DNA of 64,000 nucleotides, taken from the NCBI GenBank assembly GCA_002101205.1, contig LWTM01000070.1, forward strand, positions 1 to 64,000. The letters are read 5' to 3'. Each line of letters begins with the position of its first letter. The first letter of the stretch is position 1. The DNA is from Cycloclasticus sp. symbiont of Poecilosclerida sp. N. GTDB lineage: Bacteria > Pseudomonadota > Gammaproteobacteria > Methylococcales > Cycloclasticaceae. A program made the position numbers and the translations under genes. This document shows, piece after piece, positions 12,772 to 43,122 of this stretch. The notes beneath the pieces are model-generated. The model was not told the DNA's origin and did no database searches. It saw only the letters and a list, made by a program, of their open reading frames with translations.

Positions 12772-12804
12772 ACATGTTAGTCTACTGCTAAAAACTAGCG
12801 GTTG

Positions 12805-13104
12805 TTAGGAGTAAATAGAACTATGCAGATAATTAACACGGCGTCTGTCTGTTTTTATTAACTTTGTTCTAGACGTTGTGAAGCGAAATGACGCAACGTC
12901 AGCTTGTTTTTGATTTCTATCTAATAGCACGCCCTGTATTGAATACTGACCTAGCCGTAGAGTTCTATGGGAAATAGAAAGGGTTATGTCTAGGTGAACA
13001 ACGGTCACTTTTGCTTTAATGTAATGATAAGGGTTGTGTTGTTCACTTGAATCAACGGTGCTTATCTTTAGGCCGCTGTAAACTGAGCGAGTTGAACTGC
13101 ACAC
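12805..13104 (-). CDS. Uncertain 99-codon open frame
   Basis: A GTG-started frame with no family I recognise. The middle (YIKAKVTVVHLDITLSISHR and TLRLGQYSIQGVLLDRN) has an alternating polar/hydrophobic pattern like beta strands, which gives it some look of a real protein. There is no clear ribosome binding site and the frame continues only ten codons upstream before a stop. It lies upstream of moeB on the same strand, in a region with mobile-element debris, so it could be the C-terminal remnant of a longer gene. Confidence 0.25.
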   Translation of the reverse strand: MCSSTRSVYSGLKISTVDSSEQHNPYHYIKAKVTVVHLDITLSISHRTLRLGQYSIQGVLLDRNQKQADVASFRFTTSRTKLIKTDRRRVNYLHSSIYS

Positions 13105-13301
13105 AATTAAATCCCAGTAAACGCCTGGAACCTACAAGTGCGAACTACGGTTTTGATGAACCATCATGCCAGGTAATGCACTCGCTAGACGTTTTATACG
13201 GCGAGGTCTAGGTCGACTGTATTTATAGAATAAATCCGGGCAGGCCTCGTGTTAATTAATAAGACCGATAATTTACTGCTAACAAGAAAGGGAAATAAAA
13301 A

Positions 13302-13330
13302 TTGACATATGTTGCACAGCAATATATAAT
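13302..13330 (+). promoter_or_regulatory. Consensus sigma-70 promoter
   Basis: TTGACA at 13302-13307 and TATAAT at 13325-13330, separated by exactly 17 bases: a perfect match to the consensus. Transcription should start at about 13337. An inverted repeat, CAGCAA (13317-13322) and TTGCTG (13344-13349), straddles the -10 element and the start point and could be an operator. Confidence 0.85.
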
Positions 13331-13336
13331 TTACAT

Positions 13337-13426
13337 CACGTTGTTGCTGAGAATTTTTTAATAAATTCTGCAAAGGTAATAATGTTCTCCTCCTTCTAGC
13401 GACTCTTTATGAGTCGCTTTTTTTTT
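13337..13426 (+). ncRNA. Candidate small RNA or five-codon leader transcript
   Basis: A roughly 90-nt unit bounded by a perfect promoter and a strong terminator. It contains a hairpin (AGAATTT 13350-13356 with AAATTCT 13363-13369), then an unpaired segment with AAAGG, an ATG at 13382 and four codons (Phe-Ser-Ser-Phe) ending in TAG at 13397-13399, which touches the terminator stem. The same segment contains CCTCCTT, the exact complement of the Shine-Dalgarno consensus. It can be read as an sRNA with an anti-Shine-Dalgarno site, or as a leader peptide whose downstream gene has been lost. I do not recognise a known RNA family. No gene follows within range. Confidence 0.6.
13398..13426 (+). terminator. 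Rho-independent terminator
   Basis: AGCGACTC (13398-13405), a five-base loop, GAGTCGCT (13411-13418), then an uninterrupted T run to 13426. An eight-pair perfect stem. Confidence 0.9.
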
Positions 13427-13483: not shown

Positions 13484-13788
13484 CCAAATTGGCTCAGAAA
13501 CATCGGCTATTGGGCGTTTTCGAACTCGTTTAGTTGAACATGATCTGCGTGAGCACTTGTTGGGCGCGATTAATCTCCAACTTGAAGCGAAACACATTAT
13601 CATGAAAGAGGGTCGCATTAATATCATTGACAAGGTGAATGGCGCAGCCAGAGAAGGTGCCATGGGGCATGCAACACCTATAGAAGCGATGCAGTCGGGT
13701 TCCTGCAATGGTAAAGATGGAAAACCAAAGAAAGCCCAGGTGGCTGGTTGGCATGTTAAAAAATGACAGTCGTAGTAACAAGTGATTG
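13484..13788 (+). pseudogene. IS5-family transposase relic, N-terminal half
   Basis: The frame reads SETSAIGRFRTRLVEHDLRE, then LLGAINLQLEAKHIIMKEGR and INIID, then a 13-residue foreign insertion, then ATPIEAMQSGSCNGKDGKPK and AGWHVKK, ending in stops near 13764. This is the part of an IS5 transposase that is missing from the copy at 1871-2574. The rest of the coding region is gone, but the element's right end is recognisable at 13898-14042. Between the two, 13789-13897 holds nothing I recognise. Confidence 0.75.
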
Positions 13789-13897
13789 TGGTTAAAAGTC
13801 AACTTTTCAGGCTAATTTTTCATCCCGAGCAGCGTTGTTTTTAACCATCGTATTAAAGCCGAGTTAAACGGAAGCCTTTTCTTCTGTTTTAATGAAA

Positions 13898-14042
13898 ATA
13901 GGATAGGCTAGCCGTGTTGCATAGTAAACCCAAAAAACGATCAAAATCAGCTTGAATTAAGAACATAACCACGGATTTATGCAGAAAATATAGAACATAA
14001 AACAAAAACACATGTTTAACGATAAAATTGAGATGTTATGCT
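13898..14042 (+). repeat. IS5-type right end, 145 bp, inverted copy at 60680-60825
   Basis: The plus strand here and the minus strand at 60680-60825 differ at about 9 of 145 positions by hand alignment, and the last 65 or so bases are identical. In both places the segment follows IS5 transposase remains in the transposase's orientation, so it is best read as the element's 3' end. Its final bases contain the ATG used here as the murJ start. The other copy ends 36 bases before grxD. Confidence 0.8.
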
Positions 14043-15621
14043 GAACCCTCGGGATAAAAGTGCATTAAATACTGGAGTGAGTACGCTGAGTAAATCGTTA
14101 ATAAAATCGACGGCCGTTGTTGGCAGCATGACGATGATTTCGCGTGTCTTGGGCTTTATTCGAGACATTGTTATTGCACGCTTTTTTGGTGCAGGCGAAG
14201 GAACGGATGCTTTTTTTGTCGCCTTCAAAATACCTAACTTTATGCGTCGTTTGTTTGCCGAAGGGGCGTTTTTACAAGCGTTTGTGCCGGTATTATCAGA
14301 GTATAAGGAAAACAAACCAACTGAAGCGCTAAAAGAGCTAATTGAAAAAACGGCTGGAACGCTGGCGACGGTGCTGTTTTTTATTACCCTACTTGGGGTT
14401 GTTGGAGCGCCCATTTTGATTTATATGTTTGCCCCCGGGTTTGACGCGACGGATTCGAGGCATGACCTCGCTGTAGAGATGCTACGTTTAACGTTTCCCT
14501 ATTTGTTTTTTATCTCTTTAACGGCGATGGCGGGTGGGGTACTAAATACGTATGGTAAATTCGCTATTCCTGCGATAACGCCTGTGTTTTTAAACCTTTC
14601 ATTTTTGGTCGCAGTGTTTTGGTTATCGCCGATGTTAGATAGACCCGTTATGGCACTAGCTTGGAGTGTTCTATTGGCGGGTATTGTACAGCTAGCTTTT
14701 CAGTTTCCTTACCTCGCTAAGTTAGGCCTAATACCTAGGCTGAAATTTGACCGTGAGCACGCAGGCGTGAAAAAAATCATGAACCTGATGTTGCCGGCGT
14801 TATTTGGTGTGTCGGTAACGCAAATAAACTTACTGCTTGATACTTTACTAGCGTCATTCTTAGTCACTGGAAGTGTTTCGTGGCTATATTTTTCTGATAG
14901 ATTGGTGGAGTTTCCATTAGGTATTTTCGGTATTGCATTAGCGACAGTGGTTTTACCTAAATTATCGAAAAGCCATATATCTGGAAAGCATGATGAGTTT
15001 TCAGCAAGTTTGGATTCAGGCTTGAGGTTTGTAGTTTTACTGGCTGTGCCGGCTGCAGCAGGGCTGTTTTTTTTAGCGCAGCCGATGTTAACAACATTGT
15101 TTCAATACGATGCATTTACGACAAGCGATGTGGAGATGGCGTCACTGAGTTTGATGGCTTATGCTGTCGGTCTTCCGGCGTTTATTTTAGTTAAAGTGTT
15201 GGTGCCTGGCTTTACCTCGCGACAAGATATGAAAACACCCGTTAGAATTGGTGTTATTGCGGTGGTATCGAATATGCTGATGAGTGTTGTGTTGGTGTTC
15301 TTTTTGCAACATGCGGGTCTGGCGCTGGCGACATCGTTGGCGGCATTTGTAAACGCGAGTTTGCTATTTAGAGCGCTAATTAAGCAACGGGTTTATTCAC
15401 CCCAAGCAGGCTGGGGTGCCTTCGTATTAAAAGTAATGCTGGCAAATTTAGCGGTGAGTATTATTTATTTTTATGATTTCTCGCCACTTCAATGGTATGA
15501 ATGGGGAGCATTTGATAGGGCACTTAACCTTAGCTCAGAAATTTTAGCTGTATTGGTGTTGTACGTGGTGAGTTTATTAGCGCTGGGTATTCGTCCACGA
15601 CACGTGCTTTTGAAAGGGTAA
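14038..15621 (+). CDS. murJ: Lipid II flippase MurJ
   Basis: A 527-residue polytopic membrane protein of the MOP superfamily with about 14 helices, which moves lipid II across the inner membrane for peptidoglycan synthesis. The family start SKSLIKSTAVVGSMTMISRV and LGFIRDIVIARFFGAG is at residues 18-53; charged residues in the N-lobe (R37, R40 region) are retained. The family N-terminus begins with about SKSL, so 13-17 extra residues are present; the ATG at 14038 lies in the last bases of an IS5-type end. A GTG at 14077 or a CTG at 14086 (with GGAG eight bases upstream) might be the native start. rpsT, often the neighbour, is absent. ribF follows after 7 bases. Confidence 0.93.
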   Translation: MLNPRDKSALNTGVSTLSKSLIKSTAVVGSMTMISRVLGFIRDIVIARFFGAGEGTDAFFVAFKIPNFMRRLFAEGAFLQAFVPVLSEYKENKPTEALKELIEKTAGTLATVLFFITLLGVVGAPILIYMFAPGFDATDSRHDLAVEMLRLTFPYLFFISLTAMAGGVLNTYGKFAIPAITPVFLNLSFLVAVFWLSPMLDRPVMALAWSVLLAGIVQLAFQFPYLAKLGLIPRLKFDREHAGVKKIMNLMLPALFGVSVTQINLLLDTLLASFLVTGSVSWLYFSDRLVEFPLGIFGIALATVVLPKLSKSHISGKHDEFSASLDSGLRFVVLLAVPAAAGLFFLAQPMLTTLFQYDAFTTSDVEMASLSLMAYAVGLPAFILVKVLVPGFTSRQDMKTPVRIGVIAVVSNMLMSVVLVFFLQHAGLALATSLAAFVNASLLFRALIKQRVYSPQAGWGAFVLKVMLANLAVSIIYFYDFSPLQWYEWGAFDRALNLSSEILAVLVLYVVSLLALGIRPRHVLLKG

Positions 15622-25649: not shown

Positions 25650-26006
<357 letters not shown>

Positions 26007-26109
26007 ATTCATTTGTAATTTAGTGAAGTCGAACTAGAAAACTTCTGATGGTGCTCCGATTTTCTGGAGTGCATACACAATATGCGACTAAATACTTTAA
26101 AAAGATTTG

Positions 26110-41099: not shown

Positions 41100-41887
41100 G
41101 AGCAGTAACCGCCGATGTTTATGACAGTGCTAAGCCATTATTAAAAGCAATGGTATTGATGTTATTACTCACATTAGGTTTGTGGAAGGTTTTCGATTGG
41201 ATGTCTCAGCCAAACACCATGCCCATTAAGCACGTCCGGATTGAAGCTGAGATGAGATATTTATTGCGCGAAGATATATCAAAAGCAATATCAGATGATA
41301 TGCAAACGGGTTATTTTGCTATCAATAGTCAGAAGATTATTGATGAATTGACGCATATAGAATGGGTTAAAGAGGCACGTATAAGAAGGGTTTGGCCAGA
41401 CACCGTTGTAGTGTCGATTAAAGAGCAATTCCCAGTTGCAATATGGAATGAAACGTCTTTATTAAACCAAGATGGCGATGTGTTTCAACCGAGAAATATT
41501 GAATTACTAGAGCACTTGCCTTCTTTGTCTGCTGTGGATAGCCAAAGTAAATTCGTATTACAGCAGAGTAAAGAAATAGATCAAAAACTTGAATTATTGG
41601 GTTTGTCTGTGCAAAAGCTAGTGCTTTCAAAGCACGGTAGTTGGGACGTTGTATTAAGTAATGGGGTTTTTATTAAGGCGGGTCACCAGTTGCCTGAAAA
41701 AGGAGTCAGTAAATCGTTAAACACGTTGGCATTTTTGCAAAACGAACTATTGCAACAAGCTAGCAGTATAGATTTACGTTATCCAAATGGTATTTCAGTA
41801 ACGTGGAAGAAAGGCTATGTTTTTGGTCGGTCAAGCGAAGCTGTAAAGGCACTTGCCGTCAACAATAATGAGCCAACAAAAGGCTAG
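41096..41887 (+). CDS. ftsQ: Cell division protein FtsQ
   Basis: A 263-residue bitopic divisome protein that recruits FtsL and FtsB. A short cytoplasmic part is followed by a membrane helix at about 18-35 (LLKAMVLMLLLTLGLWKVF), a POTRA domain (IKHVRIEAEMRYLLREDISK to WVKEARIRRVWPDTVVVSIK, about 44-105) and a beta domain with ARIRRVWP and LDLRYPNG-like blocks. Overlaps ddl; five bases before ftsA. Confidence 0.94.
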   Translation: MRAVTADVYDSAKPLLKAMVLMLLLTLGLWKVFDWMSQPNTMPIKHVRIEAEMRYLLREDISKAISDDMQTGYFAINSQKIIDELTHIEWVKEARIRRVWPDTVVVSIKEQFPVAIWNETSLLNQDGDVFQPRNIELLEHLPSLSAVDSQSKFVLQQSKEIDQKLELLGLSVQKLVLSKHGSWDVVLSNGVFIKAGHQLPEKGVSKSLNTLAFLQNELLQQASSIDLRYPNGISVTWKKGYVFGRSSEAVKALAVNNNEPTKG

Positions 41888-41892
41888 AGAAA

Positions 41893-43122
41893 ATGAAGAA
41901 AAATAGTGATAAAAATTTAATTGTTGGTCTAGATATTGGCACATCAAAGGTAGCGACAATTGTCGGTGAAATGATGCCTGATGGAACAATTGACGTGATT
42001 GGTATCGGCTCTAATCCATCACGCGGGTTAAAAAAAGGGGTTGTGGTGAACCTTGATTTAACCGTCCTCTCAATTCAGCGCGCCGTAGAAGAGGCTGAGT
42101 TAATGGCGGGTTGTCAAATAAGCTCAGTATTTGTGGGGATTGCTGGCAGCCATATTAGTAGCTTAAATTCCAATGGTGTTGTAGGCATCAAGGACGATGA
42201 AGTTAATGCATCAGACATAGAAAGAGTTATTGATGCTGCGAGAGCCGTTGTTATTCCGGCTGATCAGAAAATTCTTCACATTATGCCGCAAGAGTTCATT
42301 ATTGATGGGCAAGAGGGTATTAAAGAGCCTATAGGCATGGCGGGTATCCGACTTGAAGTGAAAGTTCATATTGTGACGGGGGCGGTTAGTGCGGCTCAAA
42401 ATATCATCAAGTGTGTACGCCGATGCGGTTTGGAAGTAGAAGATATTATTTTGGAGCAACTTGCATCCAGCACATCGGTGTTAACCGAAGATGAAAAAGA
42501 ACTCGGAGTTTGTTTGGTCGATATAGGCGGTGGAACAACCGATATAGCCGTTTTTTGTGATGGCTTTATCCGCCATACAGAGGTTATTCCAATCGCGGGT
42601 GACCAAGTAACAAATGATATTGCCGTAGCGCTAAGGACGCCAACGCAGCACGCAGATGAAATTAAATTGAAATATGCATGCGCACTGACTCAATTAGTTC
42701 AGCAGGACGAGATGATTGATGTCCCAAGTATAGGCGATCGTCCTAGTCGCAAGATATCAAGAGGCAACTTGGCAGAAATTATAGAGCCGCGTTACGAAGA
42801 GTTAATGATGTTAGTTCAGGCGGAACTAAGGCGTAGTGGGTTTGAAGATATTGTTACTGCTGGTGTGGTGCTAACAGGCGGCAGTGCAAAGGTTGAGGGT
42901 GTGGTTGAGTTGGCGGAAGAAGTATTTCATATGCCGGTTCGTTTGGGTTGCCCACAGTACGTGTCGGGATTAGGCGAAGTAGTACGTAATCCTATTTATG
43001 CAACAGGCGTAGGTTTGTTGCTGTTTGGGCAACAAAATAGTGTGGTTAATAGTGGTGAGGTCAGTGGTGGTTTTGAGGGGATGTGGGCAAAGATGAAGAG
43101 TTGGTTTCAGGGTAATTTTTAA
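41893..43122 (+). CDS. ftsA: Cell division protein FtsA
   Basis: A 409-residue actin-fold protein tethering FtsZ to the membrane. LIVGLDIGTSKVATIVGE (about 9-26) is phosphate loop 1, LVDIGGGTTDIAVF loop 2 (about 208-221), and GVVLTGGSAKVEGVVELAEE the adenosine motif; the 1C domain lies at about 85-165. The C-terminus MWAKMKSWFQGNF is the amphipathic membrane-targeting helix. ftsZ begins 41 bases downstream. Confidence 0.98.
   Translation: MKKNSDKNLIVGLDIGTSKVATIVGEMMPDGTIDVIGIGSNPSRGLKKGVVVNLDLTVLSIQRAVEEAELMAGCQISSVFVGIAGSHISSLNSNGVVGIKDDEVNASDIERVIDAARAVVIPADQKILHIMPQEFIIDGQEGIKEPIGMAGIRLEVKVHIVTGAVSAAQNIIKCVRRCGLEVEDIILEQLASSTSVLTEDEKELGVCLVDIGGGTTDIAVFCDGFIRHTEVIPIAGDQVTNDIAVALRTPTQHADEIKLKYACALTQLVQQDEMIDVPSIGDRPSRKISRGNLAEIIEPRYEELMMLVQAELRRSGFEDIVTAGVVLTGGSAKVEGVVELAEEVFHMPVRLGCPQYVSGLGEVVRNPIYATGVGLLLFGQQNSVVNSGEVSGGFEGMWAKMKSWFQGNF

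Follow-up and report, generated by a model that had tools for sequence, protein, structure and literature searches.

Organization of the locus

The window, i.e., the whole analysed stretch of 64,000 nucleotides from the Cycloclasticus sp. symbiont of Poecilosclerida sp. N, carries a compact unit between moeB and murJ that is present as a single copy in the genome of this symbiont (the host genome of the unit). A sequence-only reading of this DNA had described here, within about 125 bases, a perfect promoter, a hairpin, the motif CCTCCTT and a strong terminator, and all of these elements were confirmed at 13302-13426, arranged as follows:

13302-13330, + strand: sigma-70 promoter TTGACA-17-TATAAT (12/12 match), with TTGACA at 13302-13307, a 17-base spacer and TATAAT at 13325-13330
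13309-13325, no strand assigned: imperfect dyad ATGTTGC-ACA-GCAATAT, a candidate operator in the conserved promoter spacer
13337-13426, + strand: predicted small RNA of ~90 nt
13338-13385, + strand: 5′ hairpin of the RNA, with a conserved lower 10-pair stem and a variable upper part
13382-13399, + strand: five-codon open reading frame ATG-TTC-TCC-TCC-TTC-TAG (MFSSF) with AAAGG 5′ of the ATG, judged to be no gene
13386-13397, + strand: anti-Shine-Dalgarno seed UCUCCUCCUUCU, unpaired in the predicted fold and the best conserved block, with CCTCCTT at 13389-13395
13398-13426, + strand: intrinsic terminator with an 8-bp stem (13398-13418) and a T9 tract reaching 13426

The promoter is the only perfect sigma-70 promoter in the 64 kb, against 0.04 expected by chance, and transcription would start near 13337, approximately 7 nt past the -10. 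The RNA was predicted to fold with -27 kcal/mol (z = -5.85; none of the shuffled sequences was equally stable) into the 5′ hairpin, the unpaired UCUCCUCCUUCU and the terminator. The dyad pointed out by the sequence-only reading was also found; it had been said to straddle the -10, but it sits mainly in the promoter spacer and overlaps the -10 by its first base only.

The host assembly (1.92 Mb in 77 contigs) represents a repeat-rich, reduced genome, and the unit is the one single-copy piece amid repeat debris. The left flank (12803-13284) matches ~30 places in the genome, and the right flank holds two repeats (13787-14044), one of them with about a dozen genome copies. The next gene 3′ of the unit, murJ, is located ~600 bp away, past the repeats. 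The segment 12803-13284 has the appearance of a patchwork of short repeat elements, probably the remains of a non-autonomous mobile element, and transposase-like debris was recognized by eye in the right flank as well, where a Pfam search gave no match. The repeat at 13898-14044 (~147 bases, about a dozen copies) lies directly upstream of murJ and occurs also upstream of the PQQ_ABC_bind gene at C73; since the listed murJ ATG (14038) falls inside this repeat, the true start of murJ is probably a GTG near 14077. Elsewhere in the window, a class A RNase P RNA was recognized at 25650-26009 (Rfam RF00010, 327 bits).

Conservation of the unit in Cycloclasticus

BLAST searches detected the unit in 15 of 17 genomes of the same genus and in two genomes from another family, the two same-genus genomes lacking it being 58% and 87% complete. 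Retention of the promoter and terminator in close relatives, which the sequence-only reading had set as a check, was thus observed in these 15 genomes. Among the aligned Cycloclasticus sequences, the information content was highest in the seed (1.92 of 2 bits per column), followed by the U tract (1.88), the -35 (1.76), the terminator (1.73), the 5′ arm (1.67), the promoter spacer (1.48; five of its positions were invariant across 18 sequences) and the -10 (1.36). In the flanks and in the stretch just past the -10, it was about 0.5-0.6 bits per column, in agreement with the earlier impression that the unit is the sole piece of this kilobase under visible selection. The seed is not entirely invariant: that of G007 carries two changes (CCCCUUCUC), and in the window its 3′ end reads UUCUAG instead of the CUCUUGG present before the change.

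The two helices were retained together with the sequence. In helix 1 (the 5′ hairpin), 97.5% of the cells were paired over 16 species, with one pair changed on both sides and six pairs changed on one side; in helix 2 (the terminator), 99.2% were paired and two pairs were changed on both sides. Jointly, pairing amounted to 98.3% over 16 distinct sequences, and the three double-changed pairs are compensatory stem changes of the kind that the earlier reading had proposed to look for in relatives. The observed covariation score, part of which could be accounted for by the relatedness of the sequences, was reached by 0 of 500 shuffles, and slid controls were 31-61% paired. Such a pairing pattern across relatives is what would be expected from a structured RNA.

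Separation from the PQQ_ABC_bind gene

In 14 of the 15 same-genus homologues, the PQQ_ABC_bind gene (TIGR03863, E = 2e-145) is located 3′ of the unit on the same strand; the contig of the fifteenth ends too early to show the downstream gene. Both homologues from the second family likewise have PQQ_ABC_bind downstream on the same strand. The distance between the unit and this gene in the relatives is roughly 100-200 nt, and the opposite side of the unit is usually occupied by a divergent alpha/beta hydrolase gene. In the host genome, the hydrolase and PQQ_ABC_bind genes are still neighbours (C73:40258-41064 and 41700-42851), and no unit was found in the intergenic space between them. This ancestral site (G000 C73:41065-41700; L035 5066-5700) is filled by a 158-base repeat and transposase debris, the latter being assigned to the IS1595 type by a PF12762 match (E = 2e-4) that is below the curated cut-off. 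Because the 158-base repeat of C73 is also present just upstream of murJ, recombination between repeat copies could have been a possible route of the move.

If this single repeat-rich, MAG-like assembly is right, the unit would have moved or been cut loose from its neighbour and yet been kept intact. Its retention after separation from PQQ_ABC_bind favours a trans-acting RNA over an orphan attenuator, and the separated copy offers a natural experiment on cis versus trans action. Searches for carriage of the unit by plasmids or phages gave no match.

Distribution beyond Cycloclasticus

A DNA pattern consisting of the seed and terminator matched 30 contigs in 84,980 species genomes, and those of the 30 that are informatively named belong to Cycloclasticus or to methylotrophs, almost all of them methanotrophs. 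Within the order, about 56 of 301 genomes (counted by hand) matched the core model R1 at 36 bits or more. In a class-wide sample, from which the four genomes of this order had been subtracted, matches were obtained in 2 of 365 genomes, namely G503, with the terminator only and the seed lacking, and G501, with four copies. In the order to which G501 belongs, 17 genomes of one family have the unit in 1-4 copies, and 14 of these represent one genus (~1.9 Mb). The copies from this order, among those listed, consist of CTCTCCTCCTCTTGG and the terminator. They are unlinked or tandem and occur mostly in small genomes (L208-L222, L134, L136-L138); one adjoins a gene judged by eye to be RdgC-like.

With model R2, built from Cycloclasticus only, the methanotroph units were mostly recovered at E-values of 1e-13 to 1e-9; for the G501-order units, they were 1e-10 to 1e-7. 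These values overstate independence, since the loci were picked by related criteria. The methanotroph units differ in their 5′ half, which often closes with AGAAC...GUUCU, and they often come after a TonB receptor gene. An RNA of similar anatomy with the seed UAUCCUUCUCUU, or one near it, was seen in Methylomonadaceae-like genomes (L129, L131, L132, L128); in several it lies beside genes that by eye resemble those for arsenic resistance (arsR, arsC, transporter), and it is sometimes tandem. Homology across families between the Cycloclasticus and methanotroph units is likely from these comparisons, and homology is only possible for the G501-order units and for the UAUCCUUCUCUU type found near arsenic genes.

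Predicted function

By sequence prediction, the unit has the attributes of the sRNA class: its own promoter and intrinsic terminator, both conserved, and between the two hairpins a conserved, unpaired, CU-rich seed. These features support the earlier proposal of a regulatory RNA with an anti-Shine-Dalgarno seed. The unit in the window is almost certainly the gene for a regulatory RNA of ~90 nt, and we consider it likely that this gene is free-standing and encodes a trans-acting anti-Shine-Dalgarno sRNA, which would probably switch off protein production from other genes.

The RNA would be transcribed from its own sigma-70 promoter to its own terminator, and its 5′ hairpin and terminator hairpin would leave UCUCCUCCUUCU exposed. 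The sequence CCUCCUU is that of the 3′ tail of 16S rRNA. As the seed carries it, the RNA should pair with the Shine-Dalgarno regions of target mRNAs, and ribosome loading would be blocked. The hfq gene is present in the host genome, and its product is probably bound at the U tract, which is encoded by the T9 tract. The conservation of the promoter spacer and the placement of the dyad between the -35 and the -10 suggest that the promoter may be controlled by a repressor.

An exact search for AGGAGGAGAA gave no other occurrence in the host genome. The pattern AGGAGGA-N(3-10)-ATG was found there at five sites, against two for the reversed control; a comparison of four species gave no common gene with such a site. 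The ribosome-binding site of PQQ_ABC_bind in the relatives was not consistently complementary to the seed. The methanotroph TonB receptor gene showed strong pairing at some candidate starts only, and it did not emerge as a consistent target. The RNA may act through imperfect pairing or on a different partner.

Alternative explanations

The sequence-only reading had also offered a five-codon leader and an orphan attenuator as identities of the segment. AAAGG, the ATG and the stop are indeed present at 13382-13399, as expected from a mini-mRNA or leader-peptide gene for MFSSF. However, the AAAGG was found in the window only and is absent in the relatives, one species reads ACG in place of the ATG, and G010 alone also stops after five codons; in the other relatives, the frame runs for 14-50 codons, through the terminator. 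Moreover, the 5′ hairpin takes up the ATG in its paired 3′ arm. No conserved short open reading frame with a Shine-Dalgarno sequence was found among the aligned relatives, and the leader-peptide gene was rejected on account of its varying start, stop and Shine-Dalgarno; that the unit serves to encode MFSSF is extremely unlikely. The suggestion of an orphan attenuator was correct insofar as the unit once stood upstream of a gene; that gene has not been lost, since C73 still carries PQQ_ABC_bind and lacks the unit. A role in cis, as a leader or attenuator for the PQQ_ABC_bind operon that became an orphan in the host genome, would explain why this gene follows the unit in nearly all same-genus homologues and in both from the second family. 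It would not explain the intact promoter, seed and terminator after separation or the persistence of PQQ_ABC_bind alone, and no alternative antiterminator pairing is evident. In addition, methanotroph homologues adjoin other genes, being located after a TonB receptor gene or beside carboxylase genes, and no downstream gene common to the distant homologues from other families was found. A cis attenuator is decidedly unlikely on these grounds and was rejected.

The position of the unit amid repeat debris and the end of its seed, which in the window has become UUCUAG in place of CUCUUGG, would also fit a former sRNA that is now drifting as a decaying relict in a degenerate intergenic region. The promoter is nevertheless consensus-perfect, the stem and terminator are intact, and even the changed seed end remains pyrimidine-rich and unpaired, which makes such a relict very unlikely. 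A further explanation retains the same anatomy and assigns it another action, the RNA serving as a sponge for a purine-rich sRNA or for a protein, or acting on the ribosome. Extreme conservation of the seed would suit one constant partner of this kind, and an exact long match in mRNA leaders was not found. On the other hand, similarly placed anti-Shine-Dalgarno seeds of known sRNAs act on mRNAs, and GGA motifs of the CsrA type are absent from the transcript sequence; we regard this mode of action as unlikely.

Relation to known sRNAs

With Rfam 15, no family reached its gathering threshold for the window unit or its homologues, and the CyaR model RF00112 gave no match to the window unit up to E = 10. 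Membership in a known Rfam family, including CyaR, was rejected in the absence of a covariance-model match, and searches of the open-access literature yielded no account of an sRNA from methanotrophs or from Cycloclasticus. CyaR (RyeE) of Enterobacterales binds the ompX Shine-Dalgarno sequence with its seed in an Hfq-dependent manner (PMC11795201), and its aSD motif has been noted (PMC3927594). Like CyaR, the unit specifies a short sRNA whose anti-Shine-Dalgarno seed, situated 5′ of the terminator, is conserved and whose 5′ part varies; it differs from CyaR in sequence outside the seed, in its promoter and in its neighbours, and no CRP-type site was recognized in it. Since the RNA would act like CyaR but fails the CyaR model, it would belong to a class already known, the anti-Shine-Dalgarno sRNAs, as a new family that is trans-acting and probably Hfq-dependent.

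A broader proposal, which is doubtful at present, is that of an ancient gammaproteobacterial family of sRNAs mimicking the ribosome tail, with a core of UCUCCUCCUCUUGGC and the terminator, which would put a global brake on those mRNAs whose Shine-Dalgarno sequence is strong. If true, Cycloclasticus, methanotrophs and a second order would all have members of this family, as many as four in one genome; braking could occur, e.g., during one-carbon or short-alkane metabolism, and the sRNA would be important enough to stay after separation in a repeat-riddled, reduced genome. A conserved sRNA in methanotrophs or Cycloclasticus would make it possible to test directly how the metabolism of methane, alcohols and hydrocarbons is controlled after transcription. 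A seed that is near-invariant across orders also raises the question of why one anti-Shine-Dalgarno sequence stays constant while most of the other RNA changes.

Two further groups of sRNAs can be compared with the unit. NmsRA/NmsRB of Neisseria meningitidis repress metabolic (TCA-cycle) mRNAs by anti-Shine-Dalgarno motifs (PMC5362039); they have two motifs and are sibling copies, whereas the unit has one seed and one copy. In the CCUCCUCCC-loop sRNAs of Rhizobiales (SmelA075/SmelA099 type), a CU-rich anti-Shine-Dalgarno motif is kept while the stems vary (PMC3927594); there, the motif is located in the loops of three or four hairpins, and in the unit it occurs as a single copy between two hairpins. 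The tandem copies in some distant unit-bearing genomes bear a looser likeness to the NmsRA/NmsRB siblings.
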